This document shows, piece after piece, positions 42,567 through 54,240 of a stretch of DNA of 64,000 nucleotides (position 1 is its first letter; every line of letters begins with the position of its first letter). The stretch comes from Fidelibacterota bacterium (GTDB lineage: Bacteria; Fidelibacterota; Marinisomatia; SCGC-AAA003-L08; JACNLC01), in contig JAJRUW010000015.1 of the NCBI GenBank assembly GCA_024277615.1, positions 1 through 64,000 of the forward strand. Direction: 5' to 3'. The notes beneath the pieces were generated by a model. That model searched no databases and was not told where the DNA came from. It was given only the letters and a program-made list of their open reading frames with translations. Made by a program: the position numbers and the translations under genes.

Positions 42567-42638
42567 CCGCATCCCCGACAGTCCTCCGTACAACAGTGAT
42601 TTTGTGATCTTTTATGACTGGTTTTCTGCTTCTCAGTG

Positions 42639-43526
42639 ATGCGTAAATATTACTTAGTGGTAAACCCGCATGGTGGCAATGCCAGGGGAAATGCCGTAAT
42701 GGAAAAAGTTAAACCTGTTTTTCAGAAAGCCGGGGCCGAACTGGAAATCAAGCAGACGCGCTACGCAGGGCATGCCCGTTTCATGATCAATTCGCTCGAC
42801 CTGGAGGGGTACGACGGATTCTGTGCCATTGGGGGTGATGGTACCATGCACGAACTTGTAAACGGGCTACTGACCCGATCCGACGGCAATAAAATTCCCA
42901 TTGGCCTCATAACCGGCGGGACCGGTAATTCCTTCATGCACGATATGAATTGCCTGGACCCCGTTGTGGCGGCAAAGCGAATCCTGACCGGTCGCAGGCG
43001 GAAACTCGATATTGCCCGAGTGGATGCTGCTGGTGAGATAATATACGGTTTTAACATCGTCGGCTGGGGGCTCCCTACTGATATCAATATCAGGGCAGAA
43101 AAAATGCGCTGGTTGGGCAAACAGCGCTATAATGTTGCTTCACTGATTGAAGTTTTGAAAAATACACACAGGCTGGCCAGAATCACTATGGATGATCGTA
43201 AAATCGCCGGGGATTATGGCTTCATTCTCGGCTGCAATACCATCCACACCGGCAATGCCATGAAAATGGCTCCCCTTGCACAGATTGACGACGGTCTCAT
43301 AGATCTCATCATTGTCAGGAAGGCCAGCCGCCTAAAACTGCTTAAACTTTTTACCAAAATCTTCAAAGGAGGTCATGTGGGCGACCCGGTGGTTGTCTAT
43401 CATCAGGTAAGGGAATTTTCCATTGTACCCCTTGAAGATCATACTCTTAACATTGACGGTGAACTGGTCGGCAGTACTCCAATCCATGTAAAAATGCTCG
43501 CCGGTGAGATTGAAGTCTTGGTTTAG
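42639..43526 (+). CDS. Diacylglycerol/sphingoid lipid kinase family protein
   Basis: 295 aa from ATG 42639; a GTG three bases earlier is also possible. DAGK catalytic domain: YYLVVNPHGGNARGN, ICAIGGDGTMHELVNGLL-type core (CAIGGDGTMHELVNG), IPIGLITGGTGNSFMHD, and the C-terminal beta domain with IDGELVGSTPIHVKM. The family phosphorylates diacylglycerol, sphingosine or ceramide. With a probable serine palmitoyltransferase and SDR 2.7-4.9 kb away, a ceramide or sphingoid kinase is possible, but YegS-type or DgkB-type activity is equally allowed by sequence. Confidence 0.88.
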   Translation: MRKYYLVVNPHGGNARGNAVMEKVKPVFQKAGAELEIKQTRYAGHARFMINSLDLEGYDGFCAIGGDGTMHELVNGLLTRSDGNKIPIGLITGGTGNSFMHDMNCLDPVVAAKRILTGRRRKLDIARVDAAGEIIYGFNIVGWGLPTDINIRAEKMRWLGKQRYNVASLIEVLKNTHRLARITMDDRKIAGDYGFILGCNTIHTGNAMKMAPLAQIDDGLIDLIIVRKASRLKLLKLFTKIFKGGHVGDPVVVYHQVREFSIVPLEDHTLNIDGELVGSTPIHVKMLAGEIEVLV

Positions 43527-43567
43527 CCCGGGCTTTGCTCTGCCGTAACGGCCGGCGGGACAATTTC

Positions 43568-43584
43568 GGATGACTCGTTCATCC
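43568..43584. repeat. GGATGA-N5-TCATCC hairpin
   Basis: Stem GGATGA / TCATCC lies within TCGGATGAC..GTTCATCC. The same flanking words (TCGGATGA and GTTCAT) occur in the reverse-strand hairpin at 63-83 near the left end of the window. A second small stem, GCCGT-AA-CGGC, lies about 30 bases before it. They occupy the 141-base spacer between the lipid kinase and GNAT genes. Confidence 0.5.
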
Positions 43585-43667
43585 CTCAAAAATATTCCAA
43601 ATTGTCAATTTGATGCAGAATTCAATGAGTACAAATTTGCAAATGAGCCCTAAATTTAGTCCACGCT

Positions 43668-44231
43668 ATGGAACAACTAACACTGGGAATAATCGAAAAA
43701 TCCAAGGTCAGGGTCATTGCCTCGTCCGCATTTAATTTCAGGATTGAACTCGTAGAAGAAATCGGCAAAGACGATATGCCGGATCTCGTAGAGGTTTCGG
43801 AAGAGATGGCAAAGATTTACGGAAAGCAGGCCTTACTGACTAAATCCAATATCAAAAAGTATTTCAATGAGAATACATTACCTTTTGTAGCCAGGGAAAA
43901 AGGACATATCATAGGATATATCATTGGTGTCCCTCTGGAACATTTCAAAAACGAATCCTGGTCACATTTTGATGTAAACCTGGGCAAGAAAAATACACTT
44001 TACACTTATGCTTTTGTCCTCAAAGAAAAGTACCGTAAAAAAGGCGGCTATGCCAAAACCTTAAAAAGGATTTTCATCAACTGGGCCCGGAAACAGGGCT
44101 ATCAGTACATTACAGGTCATACTCAACAGGGTGTTGCCAGTCATTTTTCACAAAAAACCGAAATTGTAAAAGTCTTTCCGGATTGGTACGGACTGGGAGT
44201 TCCTTTTGAATATTACCGGCGGCCCTTGTAA
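43668..44231 (+). CDS. GNAT-family acyltransferase
   Basis: 187 aa. The acyl-CoA binding segment is TYAFVLKEKYRKKGGYAKTL, a variant of the GNAT motif A (V-x-x-x-x-R-x-x-G-x-A), preceded by the beta4 strand PFVAREKGHIIGYIIG and followed by FINWARKQGYQYITGHT. The ~50-aa N-terminal extension (EKSKVRVIASSAFNFRIELV) and aromatic C-terminus (FPDWYGLGVPFEYYRR) are not typical of common acetyltransferases. The acceptor is unknown. Position between a lipid kinase and the SPT/SDR locus makes a lipid or long-chain-base N-acyltransferase worth testing. Confidence 0.75.
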   Translation: MEQLTLGIIEKSKVRVIASSAFNFRIELVEEIGKDDMPDLVEVSEEMAKIYGKQALLTKSNIKKYFNENTLPFVAREKGHIIGYIIGVPLEHFKNESWSHFDVNLGKKNTLYTYAFVLKEKYRKKGGYAKTLKRIFINWARKQGYQYITGHTQQGVASHFSQKTEIVKVFPDWYGLGVPFEYYRRPL

Positions 44232-44315
44232 GCGGAATCATCCGGCAGATGAACCTTACAGGATGTTACAACTGGATAATACTCCCGCAAACCCCGAATT
44301 TAATAATATTTTAGC

Positions 44316-45227
44316 ATGATCGGGAGTAAATATTATCTTCTTGGAATACTTATGCTGGCCCTGAGTGCCGGCGAATCCCTCTTTAGTGTGTACCTGGCAG
44401 CCGGCCCTGCCGAAGGCTATGACAAATATCTTATTCTTGACCCTGAACTGCTGTACACAGGTGGGATTGGTGTGTTTGAGGGCTCCGTTTTCATCGAAGG
44501 TAACGGTGCTGTAATCGATTTACAGGACGGCAGCGGTATCTGGGTTTACGGCGAAGGCGAGACGGTTGGCTCCCTGGATATCCAGCGTTGTACAATTCAA
44601 AATGGGGGCGCGTACGGCGTCAATTTTGCCGGCATTGCGACCGGCTCATTGGTGAACTGCAATCTGGTCAATGACGGTATGGGACTTCAATTGATGGATA
44701 CCGTCTCCGTTTCGATAACTAACTGCAACCTGGTGGATAATGAAATTTACGGACTGGCCATTTATTCCACTAACCCCACGGCTGACATCAGCTATTGCAA
44801 TGCCTGGAACAACGGCGAGGATTATATGGAAAACTGCCCCGGGTGAGGTAACATCTGGACACCGTTGGTGCCCCTTCCCGGAACCGGACTCATCACCGTT
44901 GATCCCCAGTTCATCAATCCACAGGAGATGAATTACAACTATTTGGAATCATCAGCCTGCATTGATGCCGGAAATCCGGAAATTCTAGATCCCGACCAAA
45001 CCTGCAGTGATATCGGAGCAAATTATTTTCCCCAGGATGTGACTCCAACGGGGGACTGCAACTCAGATGCACAACTGGATGTAATGGACATCATAACCAT
45101 TGTTAATGGTTGTATTTTATGTGAGCCGGAAGATTGTATGGACTGCTTCTGCGGCGATCTGAATCAGGACGGCAATATCGATGTTTCTGACATTATCATC
45201 TTGGTTAATGCGATTCTTGCCATCTGA
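44316..45227 (+). pseudogene. Secreted beta-helix / dockerin protein with in-frame TGA
   Basis: From ATG 44316 a signal peptide (YLLGILMLALSAGESLFS) leads to right-handed beta-helix rungs (IQRCTIQNGGAYGVNF, SLVNCNLVNDGMGL, SITNCNLVDNEIYGL). A TGA at 44844-44846 interrupts the frame after MENCPG. The same frame then continues GNIWTPLVPLPGTGLI, IDAGNPEILDPDQTCSDIGA and two dockerin-like repeats (GDCNSDAQLDVMDIITIVNG, GDLNQDGNIDVSDIIILVN) to a normal stop at 45227. About 302 aa if repaired. GGA to TGA by one base explains it. Beta-helix proteins of this kind bind or cut polysaccharides; no catalytic residues can be assigned. There is no T9SS tail. Confidence 0.8.
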
Positions 45228-45344
45228 ACGAGTTTGTAGGGGGTGAACATTTTCCCTCTCCTGCGGACCGTTGACCCGCCTAATAAAGATTTCCTACGCC
45301 TGCCCGATAATTTTTGTCTCTTAATGAAGAACCCATACCGGGAA

Positions 45345-46163
45345 TCAAATGCCGTAATGTTTTTTCAGCAGAGTCAGGAACAATTTATCCGGAAGAATTT
45401 TCCGAAGTTTAAGTGATATTTTTTGATCAATATGTCCCGTCATATATCTAAACCGCGGATTTTTCCGGCGTATAATTTTTGCGATCAGGCGGGCAAAAAC
45501 CAGCGGTTGCGCCCCTTTTTCCTCATCTTTCCCGATAACTTCTAAGACTGATTGGAAGTCTTTATTCTCTTCAAGTTCCTTTTCTGAATATTGTCGGTTG
45601 GCTGTAAATGCGGTTTTGAAATCTCCCGGCTCGATGAGAACAATGTGGATATTTTTTGATTGATACTCCTGAAAGAGAGCTTCGGAAAAACCCTCAACAG
45701 CAAATTTTGAAGCACTATAGACGGCCTGGCAGGGAAGTCCGGCTAATCCTCCCAGCGAACTGACATTTATAATTAAGCCTCCATGTTGTTTCCGCATGAT
45801 CGGCAATACCGATTTACAGACATTCAGGACACCAAAATAATTTGTTTCCATCAGACGGTGGGCTGCAGCTAGGTCGGTTCCTTCGATGGAACCGGCAATG
45901 CCGACACCGGCATTATTAACCACCACATCGAGCTTTCCCGTTTCAGAGATAATTTTTTCAGTAATTTCACGACAGCTTCTCTCCCGCGTTACATCAGCCT
46001 GAAGGAGGTTGAAGTTATTGGATCCGAGTCGTTTATTAAATTTATCCGGATCTCTGGAAGTACCGTACACCTTGTGACCTTTTTCGGCGAGCAGGGTTGC
46101 TGCGGCGAGCCCCAGCCCGGAGGATGCTCCGGTAACCAGAATCGTTTTTTTCTCAATTTCCAT
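45345..46163 (-). CDS. Short-chain dehydrogenase, candidate 3-ketosphinganine reductase
   Basis: 272 aa. Rossmann motif TGASSGLGLAAATLL at 10-24, NNAGVGIAG, INVSSLGG with the catalytic Ser, and YSASKFA with the Tyr/Lys pair. The C-terminal ~60 residues (RRKNPRFRYMTGHIDQKISL...LPDKLF) are typical of classical SDRs acting on hydrophobic substrates. It lies 3 bases downstream of the palmitoyltransferase-like gene, so it is co-transcribed. Reduction of the 3-keto group of the long-chain base is the natural second step. Substrate assignment is inferred from context only. Confidence 0.85.
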   Translation of the reverse strand: MEIEKKTILVTGASSGLGLAAATLLAEKGHKVYGTSRDPDKFNKRLGSNNFNLLQADVTRERSCREITEKIISETGKLDVVVNNAGVGIAGSIEGTDLAAAHRLMETNYFGVLNVCKSVLPIMRKQHGGLIINVSSLGGLAGLPCQAVYSASKFAVEGFSEALFQEYQSKNIHIVLIEPGDFKTAFTANRQYSEKELEENKDFQSVLEVIGKDEEKGAQPLVFARLIAKIIRRKNPRFRYMTGHIDQKISLKLRKILPDKLFLTLLKKHYGI

Positions 46164-46166
46164 GTG

Positions 46167-47435
46167 TCAACGGATTACATGATATTTCTTACCGGCTTTA
46201 ATGATTGCCGAAAGTGAAAAATCAAGCTGTTCACGCGTGTGAGTTGCCATATAGCTGGTGCGCAACATTGAGCGGCCTTCCGGTACTGCGGGTGAAATAA
46301 TGGGATTCGTATAGACACCCCTGTTCATCAGATCTTTCCACACGCGGAAGGTCTTCATGTCACTTCCAATGATAATGGGGATGACCGGCGTCCTGCTGTT
46401 GCCCGTATCGAACCCTTCCGAAATCAAATTTTCCCGTACATAGTTTGCATTCTCCAGAGCCCTTTTACCCCTGTCAGGTTCACGCTGCAGGATTTCTATG
46501 GACTTGGTTACAGTTGCGGCGTTGACCGGAGGCAGTGCAGCTGTGAAAATCATGGTGCGCGCATGATGTTTGAGATAATCTATCACCGCCTCCTCTGCGG
46601 CTATAAAACCACCAATGCTGCCAAGAGATTTACTGAAAGTGCCCATAATCAGGTCAACTTCGCTGCTAAGACCATAATGACCACAAATTCCTTCCCCGTG
46701 GTCTCCGAATATACCCAGCGAATGAGCTTCATCGATCATGATCCGGCTGTTATGCTTATGGGCTGTCTTGACCAGGTCAGGCAAATTGACAATATCCCCT
46801 TCCATACTGAAAACACCGTCGGATATGACCAATTTACCATGTCGCAGCGGATATTTTTCGAGCTCATAATCGAGTTCAATCATGTCATTATGAGCATATT
46901 TTATGACTTCACAGCGTGAGAACCTGGCACCGTCAACGATGGAAGCATGGTTCAACTCGTCGCTGAACAGCAGATCTGCCTTGGCCATGGTAGAAGCGAT
47001 TACACCGAGATTAACGCCATAGCCGGTTGAAAATACTAATGCTTTTTCTTTGCCGACCAACTCCGCAATTTTATTCTCGAGTTCTTCGTGCATTTTTAAA
47101 TTCCCGTTAAGTAATCTGCTGCCGGTAACACCCGAGCCGTACTTTCGCAATGCTGAAACACCTGCTTCAACTACTTCAGGATGGTTTGTGAGTCCCAGGT
47201 AATTATTGGAGCCCAACATGATTAACTTTTTCCCCGAGATCGATACATCCGTGGCACCAAAGTCATCTATTGCGGGATAGTAGGGATAATACCCCAGTGC
47301 CTTTGCTGTTTTTGCTCGGGTGAAGGCATACATTTTTGTGAAGATGTCCTCCGAGTGGTACCATTGCCGCCGCATGGAGAACATTTTTTGTTTGGTCAGC
47401 GTTTTGAAAGTGTTAAAAGACGATATTCCAGACAT
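46167..47435 (-). CDS. spt: Alpha-oxoamine synthase, probable serine palmitoyltransferase
   Basis: 422 aa. ATG 47435 is chosen because AAGGAG lies 8 bases upstream; the open frame begins at a GTG 17 codons earlier. PLP-dependent AONS fold: ISGKKLIMLGSNNYLGLTNH, GSGVTGSRLLNGN, FSTGYGVNLG, DELNHASIVDGAR, MIDEAHSLGIFGDHGEG, and PLP lysine in GTFSKSLGSIGGF. The FSKS context with GGF rather than GKALGGAGG, and the N-terminal ~50-aa extension (YPYYPAIDDFG), fit bacterial serine palmitoyltransferase better than KBL or BioF. It would condense serine and an acyl-CoA/ACP to a 3-keto long-chain base. A 2-amino-3-ketobutyrate ligase-like role is the alternative. Confidence 0.82.
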   Translation of the reverse strand: MSGISSFNTFKTLTKQKMFSMRRQWYHSEDIFTKMYAFTRAKTAKALGYYPYYPAIDDFGATDVSISGKKLIMLGSNNYLGLTNHPEVVEAGVSALRKYGSGVTGSRLLNGNLKMHEELENKIAELVGKEKALVFSTGYGVNLGVIASTMAKADLLFSDELNHASIVDGARFSRCEVIKYAHNDMIELDYELEKYPLRHGKLVISDGVFSMEGDIVNLPDLVKTAHKHNSRIMIDEAHSLGIFGDHGEGICGHYGLSSEVDLIMGTFSKSLGSIGGFIAAEEAVIDYLKHHARTMIFTAALPPVNAATVTKSIEILQREPDRGKRALENANYVRENLISEGFDTGNSRTPVIPIIIGSDMKTFRVWKDLMNRGVYTNPIISPAVPEGRSMLRTSYMATHTREQLDFSLSAIIKAGKKYHVIR

Positions 47436-47612
47436 CAATCCATCTCCTTTTTCTAAATTGGTTGTAAAACCTTCTGAATTACTCACACAATACAGTTCAG
47501 GAATGAGCTTATGAATCCGGGCCTCAGGTCAGCAGGTTATCGTGTCTTCCAAATCTTCAATTAAATATCATGCTCTTTGACTTAACAGAATGATAGCTGT
47601 TCCGTCATTTCT

Positions 47613-47654
47613 ACCGGATCCCTTTCTTAATACTAACCTGTTTTAGGATCCGGT
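47613..47654. promoter_or_regulatory. Perfect 9-bp inverted repeat between tetR and spt
   Basis: ACCGGATCC at 47613-47621 and GGATCCGGT at 47646-47654 are exact reverse complements with 24 bases between. It lies about 180 bases upstream of the spt start, between tetR and spt. It could be an operator or an mRNA hairpin ending the tetR transcript; no T-run follows. Confidence 0.4.
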
Positions 47655-47687
47655 TACTGTATGTTATTTTGACCATATTTTAAATAT

Positions 47688-47695
47688 TTTCGAAA
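47688..47695. promoter_or_regulatory. TTTCGAAA palindrome at the 3' side of tetR
   Basis: An 8-bp palindrome, TTTCGAAA, lies 13 bases beyond the tetR stop, upstream of spt. The half-site TTTCGA matches those found upstream of tetR. It is a candidate operator half-site; the short length makes chance possible. Confidence 0.25.
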
Positions 47696-47707
47696 TAATG
47701 AATTCTA

Positions 47708-48289
47708 TTATTTCCTCAGGCGCAGTCCGTTAAAAAGTAAATCCAGCATACCTTCAACAATGGAGGCTCCTTTAATAGAACCCTTTTGCAGAATCAGAAG
47801 CGGTTCCATCCCCTTTATGGCCGCAATAATGGAATCGCAGGCATTTTGAATATTTTTAACACGAAAAATGCCTTTGATACAACCCTCTGTCAAAATGTGA
47901 TTGATCGTATTTTCTTCAAACAATTTAAACTTTTCACGTTCGTGCCGCACAAATGAATATTGATCAAGAAATTCATCCGTTAATGTTGAATAATAATTAC
48001 TTAATTTTTGCAGAGCCGTCATCCTGGCGGTAATATATGTTGTTAATTTTTCAATAGGTGTTGTAACCCCGGATAAATCTGTCCAAATTTTCTGACGCAG
48101 CATTATGGAGTCACGATCGATAACAGCGCGATAAATCTCTTCTTTACTTCGGAAATAATAGTAGAGAGATGATTTCGCCATCTTTGCCCTCCCGGCGATT
48201 CCTTCCAGCGTCGTTTTCTGCCAGCCGAATCGTGAGATGAAACTGCCTGCGATTTCAACAATATGATTTCTTTTTTCGTCTCTGGTCAT
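47708..48289 (-). CDS. TetR/AcrR-family transcriptional regulator
   Basis: 193 aa. N-terminal helix-turn-helix ~8-55: RNHIVEIAGSFISRFGWQKT, LEGIAGRAKMAKSSLYYYF, RSKEEIYRAV. The C-terminal ligand domain is all-helical (ITARMTALQKLSNYYSTLTDEFL). It is on the same strand as spt and SDR, 272 bases upstream of the spt ATG, so control of the putative sphingolipid genes by a lipid or acyl ligand is likely. Candidate operators flank the gene. Confidence 0.88.
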   Translation of the reverse strand: MTRDEKRNHIVEIAGSFISRFGWQKTTLEGIAGRAKMAKSSLYYYFRSKEEIYRAVIDRDSIMLRQKIWTDLSGVTTPIEKLTTYITARMTALQKLSNYYSTLTDEFLDQYSFVRHEREKFKLFEENTINHILTEGCIKGIFRVKNIQNACDSIIAAIKGMEPLLILQKGSIKGASIVEGMLDLLFNGLRLRK

Positions 48290-48298
48290 ATTAAATAG

Positions 48299-48327
48299 TT
48301 TCGAATAAATAATAAATACGGTCGAAA
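48299..48327. promoter_or_regulatory. TTTCGA-N17-TCGAAA upstream of tetR
   Basis: TTTCGA at 48299-48304 and TCGAAA at 48322-48327 form a dyad 10 bases upstream of the tetR ATG, where autorepression would act. The same half-site occurs as TTTCGAAA after tetR. Assignment to the regulator is inference. Confidence 0.35.
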
Positions 48328-48399
48328 TTTAAACAAGTTTCCACAATTATTAAAACTAAATTATGAGTCACCGGTGGCTAATGAAAAACCCTGTGCAGA

Positions 48400-49743: not shown

Positions 49744-52700
49744 ATGAAACTGATCTTTCCATTTTTGCTGGCATTAACGCTGGCCAATGCAGCTCAAACT
49801 TCCCGTGATCATACCGGTTTCAAACTGCTCCACAGCAACGATGAAACTACTATTTTGGATTTCAAATCCCCTGCAATTACGCCGGTTGCAGATGGAGATT
49901 ATATGCGGCTTAGCGGTACAGACTTACAATACACCTATGCCGAGGGATTGCCCCAATTACCTCAGTTCACGGCACTGTATCAAATTGATCCCTACAAAAC
50001 ATATCAGGTTGGTTACACAGTCATTGCCAGTCATACTCTCGAAAATATTGAGATATATCCCACACAAAGCCATCAGGACAGTGAGCGGACTCCTACCCTG
50101 ACCAGGGATGATCGGGTCTATCAATCCTCATCTGCTTTCCCTGAAAGCAATCTGGTTGTATCCGACCCCATGATATTTCGCGAGACGGCCCTGATTGCCA
50201 TCAACCTCATCTCATGCAGATATTATCCATCTGAAAAACGCCTGGAAGTATTCGATCGGGTACAGCTATCCGTCACTGAAAGCGGCAGTCGGAATGATCC
50301 GGATTTCACACCAATGCCCCGGTCGCGGACTTTTGAAGCATTTTATAAAAGCAACATAATCAACTATTCAGTAAATGGACGGACCGACGATTATCAGACA
50401 CCGGCGATATTGTATATCTGCGGAGGAAATTCCGAAAATAATCCTTACACCCAAAGTTTGTTTGACTGGCGGCGTGAACGCGGATATATCGTTTATACCG
50501 CTTCAACCGGCGAAACAGGCAGCAGTGCATCCCAGATAAAAAATTATATTCAAAATGCCTATCAGACTTTTGACCCGCCGCCGGAATTTGTGGGTCTCAT
50601 CGGTGATACCGGTGGATCATACAGCATTCCCACCTATCATGAGTCGTGGTCGGGTTATGGCGGCGAAGGAGATCTTCCCTATTCCCAACTTAGCGGCAAT
50701 GATCTGTTACCTGAAGTGCTCCTTGGCAGAATATCAATCAACAACTCTACTGATCTTGCAAATGTAATCAACAAAACGATCAAATATGAAAAAGCAGCTT
50801 ATATGGGCAGTAACTGGTTTGAAAAAACAGCCCTTGTGGGTGATCCTTCAAACTCCGGCATTTCCGTCGTTATTTCCAATGAATACATCGATAATATCGT
50901 AACAAATTTCGGTATGGAAGATGTCCGCCATAATTATTCCGGTTCTTTCGCCAGCTGGATGCAGAGTCAGCTGAATGAAGGGGTGCTCTATTTCAATTAT
51001 CGCGGATATTACGGCGTCAGCGGCTTCGGAAGCGGAAACATCTCCAATGCGAACAACGGTTATAAAACACCTTTTGCTACATTTCTGACCTGCGGAACCG
51101 GCAGCTTTGACGGTACATCCCTGTCCGAGTCCTTCATTCGTGCCGGAACTGTGAGCAACCCCAAGGGCAGCGTGGCAGCTGTGGGGACGGCCACGTTGGG
51201 AACGCATACACTCATCAACAATATCATTGATATGGGAATCTATGACGGCATCTTTTCAGACGACCTGCATACGGCGGGCGCAGCTCTTGTCGCCGGAAAG
51301 CTGGCACTTTTAAATACCTATCCTTCCGACCCTGACCATAAAGTCAGTATTTTTTCACACTGGAACAATTTAATGGGAGATCCTGCACTCGAATTATGGA
51401 CGGATACACCGGTGCTGTTTGCTCCTGACTTTCCGGAATCCATCGGTGCCGGCAGCAATTATTTTGACATCATCGCGGCAGACAATTCAGGCCAGCCCGT
51501 TGCAAATGCCCTGGTGACGATTACCTCGAATGACGAATCGATCTTTGAAAGTATTTATACGGATGATGACGGAATGGCAACCCTTCCGCTGGACCCGGAT
51601 TTCACCGGTTATTTGAATCTGTGTATCACAAAGCGAAATTTCAAACCTTTTCTGACAGACATTTCCGTAACCGCTGCTGGACCTCAGATCAACCTGGCAG
51701 ATGAAGATTTAGGGCTCGATGACAGTAACGGTAACGGAGATGGAATTGTCAATAATGGCGAGCAGATCACTATCACAATCCCGCTCTTCAATTACGGTAC
51801 GGAGGAGGCCGCAAGTGTAAGCGCGATTTTAACGACCACTTCCGAACATGTTCTGATTGATGCCGCCGCCTTCGATTACGGTACATTAACCCCGGGTCAA
51901 TCCGCCGACGGCAGCTTCACTTTCACAGTCGGACCTGATGCAGTTCAGGCTGAAGACCTCGGCTTAAGACTCGGATTGACCGACGCCTCCGGCCACAGCT
52001 GGTCAGCAGTCATCCCCGTAGATGTCCATGCGCCGCTGCTTGTAGTCACAGGCTATGGTTTTGCCGATAATACCATGCTCCACCCCGGTGCAACCGAAGA
52101 ACTGTATATAATACTGGAAAACCAGGGTTCGGTGACTGCCACGGACATTACGGCAGCGCTTTCTACGACCAACAATCTGCTTGACATCTCCCCCACTCTG
52201 CTGACCTGGGAAACACTGCCCCCGGGAGTATCAGCCCAATCCGCCAACACGCTGGATATAACTGCTGATGGCGACATCATCAACGGTTCACTAATAACAC
52301 TGGCGGCTGATATTCAGAGCCTTGAAGGGTACAACCGCACGGAAAATCCACAGATCCAGGTGGGAGTGACTCTGGTTACAGATCCGCTGGGACCGGACGA
52401 CCACGGTTACTATATTTATGATTCCGGGGACAGCGCCTATGATCTGAGCCACCCCTATGTCTGGCAGGAAATCGATCCTGACCTCGGCGGCAGCGGTGTG
52501 AGCTTAAATATGACCGATAACGGTAACGGTCACCCCACGAGTCAGCATTCCGTGACCTTATCATTGCCTTTTCAATTCACTTTTTACGGCGTTAACTACA
52601 CTTCTGTTTCAGTTAGTACAAACGGCTGGATAGCTTTTGGGGAATCCGATCTGGAATCTTTCCGGAATTACCCCATCCCGGGTGCTGGCGGGCCCTCGCC

Positions 52701-54240
52701 CATGGTTGCCGCCTTCTGGGATGATCTCACTACCGATAACGGCGGTCAGGTCTATAAATACATTGATGCCGCCGAAGGCACAGTGACAATCGAATGGTCA
52801 CAAATGCGTACTTACGATCAGGGCAGTATTGAAACCTTTGAGATCATTCTGTATAATTCCTTCACTCCGAGCGGTGATGACGAGATCCTGATTCAATACA
52901 AAGATTTCAACAATACCTCCATCGGTGATATTCAGAATGGCGGCATAAATCACGGTGCGCACAGCACGATCGGTATCGAAAATCATCTCGGTAACGATGG
53001 CCTTCAATACAGCTTTGATAACCACTACCCCACTGCCGCCATGATGCTTCAGGATGAAACCACCCTGTTCATTACTACCCGGCTGCCTGAAATACTCCCC
53101 ATGCCGGTTCTGGATTATTCTGCTGATGAGCTCGATTTTACGCTCGAACAGGACGCCGTTTCAAGCGGCACTATTGAGGTCTCGAATGCAGGGGAAGAAG
53201 GTTCACTGCTCTACTACAATGTGTCAAAATCGGCCTTCCCCGTTCCCTCGGGAATGACGGATACATTCGGACACAGCTGGTCGGACACCGATCTCGACTC
53301 AGATATGGCCGTAGAATGGATTGATATCGACGGCATCGGAACACAGCTCTCCTTTGAACATAACGATCATGCCGCCGACCCCATTGACATCGGATTTGCA
53401 TTCCCCTTCTACGGAACCGACTACACCCAGTGCATCATCAGCGCCAACGGCTGGATCGGATTCGGGGAAGATAATACCGACTGGCATAATTACGGTTTGC
53501 CCGATTCGAATTCACCCCACCCGGCTATTTGCCCCTTTTATGACGATTTGAACCCCGTAAATGACGGGGACACACCTGACATGGCCGGCAATGTATATTA
53601 TCACACTGACGGAGAGCGCCTCGTCGTCTGGTTTGACCATGTAGCCCATTGGAATGGCGAGATATCAGGCAATTATAATTTCCAGGCCGTGCTGTATGCC
53701 TCGGGAGAGATCCATTTTAATTACTCCGAACTCACCGGCACCCTCAATCGTTGCACGGTGGGAATTCAGAACGCTGCCGCGGATGACGGATTGCAGCTGG
53801 CCTTTGACAGCGAGTATCTGCACGAAAATTTATCCGTCCGGTTCAGGGAAATGCCGTCCTGGCTGAACCTCTCAACCTCCGCAGGGAGTCTGAACGGTGA
53901 AATTGAGCAGGGCAGTTCGGAATTTCTATATGTGGATGTTTCCTCTGCAGGTCTGTCACTCGGGGATTATGCGGCTTATGTAACCCTCAATACGAATGCC
54001 CAGCCCAAAGTAGTCTGGCCCGTGACCCTCTCGGTGGTTGAAAATGCTCCCAATCTTCCCGGAGATGTGAATGGAGATCAGACCCTTAATATTCTGGATG
54101 TCGTGGCAGTGGTGGGTTTCGTGGTCGGGGAAACCGATCCGACCGAGGAGCAGTTCTGGGCTGCCGATCTAAACCAGGACGGTGAAATAAACGTTGTGGA
54201 TATCGTTCTCCTGGTAAACATGATCCTGAATGAATTTTAA
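49744..54240 (+). CDS. Secreted gingipain-type (C25) peptidase homologue with dockerin
   Basis: 1498 aa. Signal peptide LIFPFLLALTLANA. Propeptide-like region to ~215. Peptidase C25 domain ~218-550: ILYICGGNSENNPYTQSL, PEFVGLIGDTGG, LPEVLLGRIS, catalytic-type Cys in FLTCGTGSFDGTSLSE (~449), and HWNNLMGDPALELW. Where the catalytic His of gingipains (Y-x-GHG) is expected, this protein has FNYRGYYG (~417), so activity is doubtful. After that come Ig-like and CARDB-like domains (~640-875), two ~200-aa beta repeats each with an NGWI-FGE motif (~880-1110, ~1172-1372), and two dockerin-like repeats (~1439-1498). There is no T9SS tail. Confidence 0.85.
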   Translation: MKLIFPFLLALTLANAAQTSRDHTGFKLLHSNDETTILDFKSPAITPVADGDYMRLSGTDLQYTYAEGLPQLPQFTALYQIDPYKTYQVGYTVIASHTLENIEIYPTQSHQDSERTPTLTRDDRVYQSSSAFPESNLVVSDPMIFRETALIAINLISCRYYPSEKRLEVFDRVQLSVTESGSRNDPDFTPMPRSRTFEAFYKSNIINYSVNGRTDDYQTPAILYICGGNSENNPYTQSLFDWRRERGYIVYTASTGETGSSASQIKNYIQNAYQTFDPPPEFVGLIGDTGGSYSIPTYHESWSGYGGEGDLPYSQLSGNDLLPEVLLGRISINNSTDLANVINKTIKYEKAAYMGSNWFEKTALVGDPSNSGISVVISNEYIDNIVTNFGMEDVRHNYSGSFASWMQSQLNEGVLYFNYRGYYGVSGFGSGNISNANNGYKTPFATFLTCGTGSFDGTSLSESFIRAGTVSNPKGSVAAVGTATLGTHTLINNIIDMGIYDGIFSDDLHTAGAALVAGKLALLNTYPSDPDHKVSIFSHWNNLMGDPALELWTDTPVLFAPDFPESIGAGSNYFDIIAADNSGQPVANALVTITSNDESIFESIYTDDDGMATLPLDPDFTGYLNLCITKRNFKPFLTDISVTAAGPQINLADEDLGLDDSNGNGDGIVNNGEQITITIPLFNYGTEEAASVSAILTTTSEHVLIDAAAFDYGTLTPGQSADGSFTFTVGPDAVQAEDLGLRLGLTDASGHSWSAVIPVDVHAPLLVVTGYGFADNTMLHPGATEELYIILENQGSVTATDITAALSTTNNLLDISPTLLTWETLPPGVSAQSANTLDITADGDIINGSLITLAADIQSLEGYNRTENPQIQVGVTLVTDPLGPDDHGYYIYDSGDSAYDLSHPYVWQEIDPDLGGSGVSLNMTDNGNGHPTSQHSVTLSLPFQFTFYGVNYTSVSVSTNGWIAFGESDLESFRNYPIPGAGGPSPMVAAFWDDLTTDNGGQVYKYIDAAEGTVTIEWSQMRTYDQGSIETFEIILYNSFTPSGDDEILIQYKDFNNTSIGDIQNGGINHGAHSTIGIENHLGNDGLQYSFDNHYPTAAMMLQDETTLFITTRLPEILPMPVLDYSADELDFTLEQDAVSSGTIEVSNAGEEGSLLYYNVSKSAFPVPSGMTDTFGHSWSDTDLDSDMAVEWIDIDGIGTQLSFEHNDHAADPIDIGFAFPFYGTDYTQCIISANGWIGFGEDNTDWHNYGLPDSNSPHPAICPFYDDLNPVNDGDTPDMAGNVYYHTDGERLVVWFDHVAHWNGEISGNYNFQAVLYASGEIHFNYSELTGTLNRCTVGIQNAAADDGLQLAFDSEYLHENLSVRFREMPSWLNLSTSAGSLNGEIEQGSSEFLYVDVSSAGLSLGDYAAYVTLNTNAQPKVVWPVTLSVVENAPNLPGDVNGDQTLNILDVVAVVGFVVGETDPTEEQFWAADLNQDGEINVVDIVLLVNMILNEF

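Follow-up and report, generated by a model that had tools for sequence, protein, structure and literature searches.

In a 64,000-nucleotide stretch of contig JAJRUW010000015.1 (hereafter the window) from a bacterium of the phylum Candidatus Neomarinimicrobiota (Fidelibacterota), we identified computationally an operon of two genes, spt and kdsR, encoding an enzyme of the serine palmitoyltransferase (SPT) type and a short-chain dehydrogenase/reductase (SDR) of the 3-ketosphinganine reductase type, together with a TetR-family regulator gene. We consider it likely (probability roughly 0.7) that this TetR-linked operon supplies a Neomarinimicrobiota genus with reduced long-chain (sphingoid) bases. 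The host genome is a metagenome-assembled genome (MAG; G000) that is 77% complete. Its nearest relative, hereafter the sister genome, is an "FCB group bacterium" MAG (JAADGM010000110.1; 89% complete) having the same gene order and an SPT with 91% identity. A sequence-only reading of positions 42639–48289 had assigned a diacylglycerol kinase (DAGK)-type lipid kinase, a GNAT acyltransferase, an SDR, an SPT-like enzyme and a TetR protein to one sphingolipid locus. All five genes lie where that reading placed them, with the SPT start corrected to 47435. As a whole, however, the proposed locus stood only in part: the spt–kdsR operon and its regulator were upheld, whereas GNAT and DAGK appear to be unrelated core genes. 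The sphingolipid module thus comprises spt, the KdsR-type SDR gene and probably the upstream tetR gene, with the GNAT and DAGK genes probably outside it. The features of the module are as follows.

46167–47435, minus strand: spt, 422-amino-acid alpha-oxoamine synthase of the SPT type; the open frame extends back to GTG 47486
45345–46163, minus strand: kdsR, SDR of the 3-ketosphinganine reductase type; best NCBIfam model NF049977
47708–48289, minus strand: TetR-family regulator gene (Pfam TetR_N), upstream of spt and co-oriented with it
48299–48328, just upstream of tetR: operator-like element, first copy, 30 nt, 77% complementary to 47666–47695
47666–47695, between tetR and spt: operator-like element, second, inverted copy, complementary to the first

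The spt–kdsR pair and its regulator

The SPT was 46% identical to the Sphingobacterium multivorum enzyme (PDB 3a2b) over 384 residues (E 1e-118). All seven active-site residues of the latter that we checked (Asn-52, Ser-81, His-138, Asp-210, His-213, Lys-244, and Arg-367) were kept, corresponding to Asn-94, Ser-123, His-180, Asp-252, His-255, Lys-286, and Arg-409 in the 439-residue window frame. The roles of most of these residues have been described (PMC10196870). The protein also contained the motif GTFSKSLGSIGGF, the lysine of which is at the pyridoxal phosphate position. It very probably starts at ATG 47435 (422 residues) and not at GTG 47486 (the 439-residue frame), because a ribosome-binding-site-like stretch, AAGGAG, lies upstream of the ATG and the start is identical in the sister genome. 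Relative to the S. multivorum SPT, it has an N-terminal extension of about 35 residues that is typical of the Neomarinimicrobiota clade.

Among the family models, the CFB-type SPT model (NCBIfam NF047600) gave the highest score (499.9 bits), with BioF at 388 and Kbl also lower. In a phylogenetic tree, the window SPT was placed inside the SPT clade (support 95/96), within a phylum-specific group (100/100). Escherichia coli BioF and Kbl were outside the SPT clade, with BioF branches long enough to leave the exact root unsure. In the same tree, two family mates had Kbl as their alpha-oxoamine synthase. The tree and the model scores together ruled out that the window protein is itself Kbl or BioF. 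It was the only alpha-oxoamine synthase in the window genome at E<1e-60. Within the order, 2 of 41 genomes gave an SPT match (E<1e-90), and within the phylum 45 of 245 did so (E<1e-100); the distribution of SPT is therefore patchy. A second SPT subtype occurs in the phylum (L188–L198; 47–53% identical), some genomes having both. It precedes a conserved run of genes that by eye are non-lipid, encoding an Ig-like lipoprotein and diaminopimelate-epimerase-like and mannose-1-phosphate guanylyltransferase-like proteins. The alpha-oxoamine synthase of a Thioclava plasmid locus was set aside, as it sits in a different, polyketide-like cluster.

As the sequence-only reading had noted, an SDR gene directly follows spt; its ATG lies 3 nt after the spt stop codon. 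The encoded protein matched best the NCBIfam model NF049977 for KdsR (3-ketodihydrosphingosine reductase; 299.5 bits), which was also the best model for the homologue in L020 (330 bits), and it displayed the classical SDR signature TGxxxGxG with an invariant N-S-Y-K tetrad. Adjacent spt and kdsR genes were present in 14 Neomarinimicrobiota genomes besides that of the window, distributed over five families. We searched the 44 SPT-bearing genomes of the phylum with the KdsR profile; matches at E<1e-100 were limited to the 15 genomes with the spt–kdsR pair, all of which had one, and the other 29 gave none. Our chief argument for joint action of the two enzymes is this confinement, among SPT-bearing genomes, of KdsR to those in which its gene adjoins spt. 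Other neighbours of the pair were limited to particular families, namely a cyclopropane fatty acid synthase (L160/L168) and a histidine kinase (genus g63), and no further neighbour that might serve as an N-acyltransferase was common to the families compared.

The regulator mentioned in the sequence-only reading is the TetR protein, 76% identical in the sister genome. Homologues are encoded farther upstream of spt in some other Neomarinimicrobiota (34–36% identity) and directly upstream of spt in three Pedobacter (24–26% identity), and the window protein is likely a local regulator. The places of both copies of the 30-nt operator-like element are conserved in the sister genome. An equally good pair arose in 1 of 500 shuffles of the window but in 62 of 500 when the regions of the sister were shuffled (not above chance), and TTTCGAAA alone as an operator showed no excess in the window. 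Since the repeat exceeds chance in the window and not in the sister, this putative element only suggests that TetR may regulate its own gene and control spt. A promoter and terminator scan gave nothing above shuffled sequence, and scans for Rfam families and tRNA genes gave no matches in the window.

Ceramide synthase and CerR genes in the phylum

A protein of about 372 residues with tandem GNAT domains was encoded near SPT in 62 of 80 public SPT loci, nearly always as the immediate neighbour, and a CerR-like extended SDR was nearby in about 45 of the 80. We took the tandem-GNAT family as bacterial ceramide synthase (bCerS) because it gave a full-length alignment (hhalign E 2.4e-71) to a Roseomonas protein whose gene stands where Caulobacter has CC_1153/CC_1154, next to cytidylyltransferase and LptF/G genes; the label is thus based on this Roseomonas homologue and not on direct comparison with the Caulobacter sequence. 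Here and throughout, gene absences refer to profile searches of the assemblies. No member of the bCerS-type family was found in the assemblies of the window genome or the sister genome. CerR gave only weak matches in the window genome (1e-57 and 1e-50), which are likely other epimerases, and none in the sister at E<1e-70. Across the phylum, a bCerS-type gene was present in 2 of the 15 spt–kdsR genomes and in 27 of the remaining 29 SPT genomes (Fisher p 1.9e-7), and CerR at E<1e-70 was detected in 24 of those 29 but in 0 of the 15. The presence of kdsR beside spt and that of bCerS are largely mutually exclusive, which suggests two alternative routes. That the phylum has both a Caulobacter-type Spt–bCerS–CerR route and a eukaryote-like Spt–KdsR operon in hosts without bCerS is a proposal to which we give even odds.

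In the order, eight genomes that are without this SPT (L123 of G033 and other f5 genomes) also encode tandem GNATs of the bCerS type, once in tandem (G034). The family is therefore not strictly bound to SPT and may act on other substrates.

Several points weigh against the assignment of the operon to sphingoid-base synthesis by a separate route. The SPT score is below the equivalog cut-off of NF047600 (640), and the scores of the window SDR and its L020 homologue are below that of NF049977 (400). A literature search turned up no sphingolipid report for this genus. The Fisher test overstates the independence of the observations, because the genomes are related. Two genomes, G072 and G152, hold a bCerS-like gene besides kdsR, and at 77% and 89% completeness bCerS could be missing from the window genome and its sister by chance. 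These last two points would also fit an ordinary bacterial pathway with an extra reductase, its bCerS and CerR genes lying in unassembled parts of the MAGs. We consider this quite unlikely, as 13 of the 15 spt–kdsR genomes are without bCerS, including KdsR-type genomes that are 91–99% complete, and all 15 are without a CerR match, while bCerS is present in nearly all of the other SPT genomes, which are of similar quality.

The amino acid substrate of the SPT is most likely L-serine. Sequence cannot tell serine, alanine and glycine apart, which is a further point on the opposing side. An enzyme using alanine or another amino acid would let the pair make 1-deoxy or otherwise unusual long-chain bases. 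The S. multivorum SPT takes alanine and glycine too, less efficiently (PMC10196870), and 1-deoxyceramides and other odd sphingolipids have been discussed for the Black Sea (PMC11334938). We regard this alternative as unlikely, since the active-site residues match the serine enzyme and the sequence gives no hint of alanine.

The neighbouring kinase, acetyltransferase and UGA-containing genes

Three further features lie next to the operon on the opposite strand.

42636–43526, plus strand: YegS/DAGK-type lipid kinase, core gene; TIGR00147 above cut-off (start given as 42639 in the sequence-only reading)
43668–44231, plus strand: single-domain GNAT acetyltransferase, core gene, 40 of 41 genomes of the order
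44316–45227, plus strand: beta-helix plus dockerin-like frame with in-frame UGA at 44844–44846; candidate secreted selenoprotein

The sequence-only reading had regarded the GNAT and the DAGK as N-acyltransferase and kinase of the pathway, so that all needed activities would lie within 5 kb. Such a complete phospho-sphingolipid cluster, in which the GNAT would act as ceramide synthase and the DAGK as sphingoid-base kinase, has some precedent besides the proximity of the genes: TetR, DAGK, bCerS and SPT genes are clustered in relatives, a DAGK gene adjoins spt in Parabacteroides, and kinases for ceramide and dihydrosphingosine are known in bacteria (PMC10331486). In L024 (4785–11257; Neomarinimicrobiota MAG), co-oriented genes for TetR, an unknown protein, a patatin, a DAGK, a bCerS-type protein (broken frame) and SPT form a cluster close to the gene set that had been imagined for the window.

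The evidence from the window and its relatives makes a complete cluster here very improbable. Both genes are on the strand opposite the operon and occur in nearly all genomes of the order. The GNAT was 49–96% identical among the genomes having it and, given the SPT count of 2 of 41, does not travel with SPT. It also has a partner of its own, as the beta-helix/dockerin gene remained its neighbour in SPT-less relatives. The protein has 187 residues and one GNAT domain. Its predicted structure (mean pLDDT 83.6) matched the small acetyltransferases CBU0801, PaiA, RimI, Naa60, and Ard1 in Foldseek, and a PDB sequence search gave no match. Comparison with the bCerS-type family (about 370 residues, tandem GNAT) gave an hhalign probability of 0.9%, indicating no family-level kinship. 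The core distribution, the partner gene, the RimI/Naa60-like fold and the lack of bCerS kinship together ruled out the GNAT as the ceramide synthase, and thus the N-acyltransferase is not among the genes of the locus.

The kinase is of the YegS/Rv2252/BmrU type and was detected in 37 of the order's 41 genomes, with 47–54% identity in many SPT-less ones. It was only 25–26% identical to the spt-adjoining kinases of Parabacteroides and L024, and it gave only a short 26% match to the kinase of a Roseomonas plasmid locus. Its order-wide presence and its low identity to SPT-linked kinases do not support a dedicated sphingoid kinase of the cluster. The enzyme is probably not specific to sphingolipids, which leaves room for an incidental role in the pathway.

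The sequence-only reading had left out two open reading frames between the GNAT and SDR genes, 44316–44846 (beta-helix) and 44865–45227 (dockerin-like), which are one frame split by the TGA at 44844–44846. The TGA position was identical in nine loci across the order (the window, L013:8497–9408, L119, L120, L122, L215, L216, L218, and L227), within the motif E[NS]CPG-TGA-GNIWT (ESCPG in one locus); whole-protein identity among these loci was 42–86%. A hairpin 13–30 nt downstream of the UGA was 96% paired, with changes on both sides in two pairs and a loop starting with GU in 9 of 9 loci, and single-sequence folding energies of the region were not unusual. SelA (42%) and SelB (31%) homologues are adjacent in the window genome (G000:C62, L291:1193–4311), and no tRNA-Sec was found in the 1.2 Mb of sequence sampled. 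The product, with its CxxU motif, is thus a good secreted-selenoprotein candidate, and its gene is not part of the sphingolipid module. Together with the GNAT gene, this gene forms a cassette (window 43668–45227, plus strand; L119, L120, L122) that is conserved across the order independently of SPT. The C-terminal dockerin-like repeats of a large secreted protein encoded at 49744–54240 (plus strand), by eye C25-type peptidase-like, resemble those of the UGA-containing protein.

The proposed route and known sphingolipid systems

The identity of the genes, the catalytic residues, the placement in the SPT clade, the conservation of the operon, the joint occurrence of spt and kdsR and their separation from bCerS and CerR are computational results, and we infer substrates, products, the order of steps and regulation as follows. 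SPT would join a long acyl thioester to an amino acid, which is most likely L-serine, and so form 3-ketosphinganine; the adjacent cytoplasmic-type SDR would then use NAD(P)H to reduce this product to a sphinganine-type base. Should N-acylation occur, the enzyme for it would be encoded at another place and be neither the adjacent GNAT nor one of the bCerS-family proteins detected, and TetR would probably repress tetR and spt–kdsR. Such a reduction-first order is known from eukaryotes (animals and fungi). It has also been proposed for the 3-ketosphinganine reductase BT_0972 of Bacteroides thetaiotaomicron, which together with the SPT BT_0870 provides the same two activities (PMC9278070). The B. 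thetaiotaomicron genes are unclustered, whereas the window pair forms an operon, in a genome where bCerS and CerR were not found, and the window SDR scores best on the KdsR model.

The Caulobacter-type route, in which Spt, bCerS and CerR act in this order (PMC11087976, PMC11324152), has the SPT entry enzyme in common with the window, and a DAGK-family gene is present both here and in the compared Roseomonas plasmid locus of this type. In contrast, the window is without bCerS or CerR, reduction would be performed by a classical SDR, the neighbouring GNAT is from another family, and genes for a dedicated acyl carrier protein or an AMP ligase are not present beside spt. The S. multivorum SPT (PDB 3a2b, 8guh) differs from the window enzyme in its shorter N-terminus and has all checked residues in common with it. 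Spt-like proteins from the Black Sea metagenome, for example from Cloacimonadota, likewise have no bCerS or CerR nearby, and replacement of these two by non-homologous enzymes in some phyla has already been suggested (PMC11334938). Beyond that work, whole genomes were searched here and not only gene neighbourhoods, and the replacing reductase can be named as KdsR type.

The operon would be a variant of known bacterial sphingolipid synthesis, its value lying in the missing ceramide synthase. On gene content, the most economical reading appears to be a reduction-first route of SPT and KdsR, with an N-acyltransferase elsewhere or none. A 2024 study has described Spt, bCerS and CerR as present in all sphingolipid-making bacteria, and the in vivo role of bacterial KdsR as not clear (PMC11087976). 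Bacterial sphingolipid producers should not be called by bCerS and CerR alone, nor should a nearby GNAT or DAGK be named ceramide synthase or sphingoid kinase. If true, the Spt–KdsR route would imply a non-homologous ceramide synthase or else membrane lipids in which the sphingoid bases are free or modified in some other way. The spt–kdsR operon, confined to genomes mostly without bCerS and without CerR, provides genetic evidence for a bacterial reduction-first route, and its two genes suffice to put the order of the reactions to the test.

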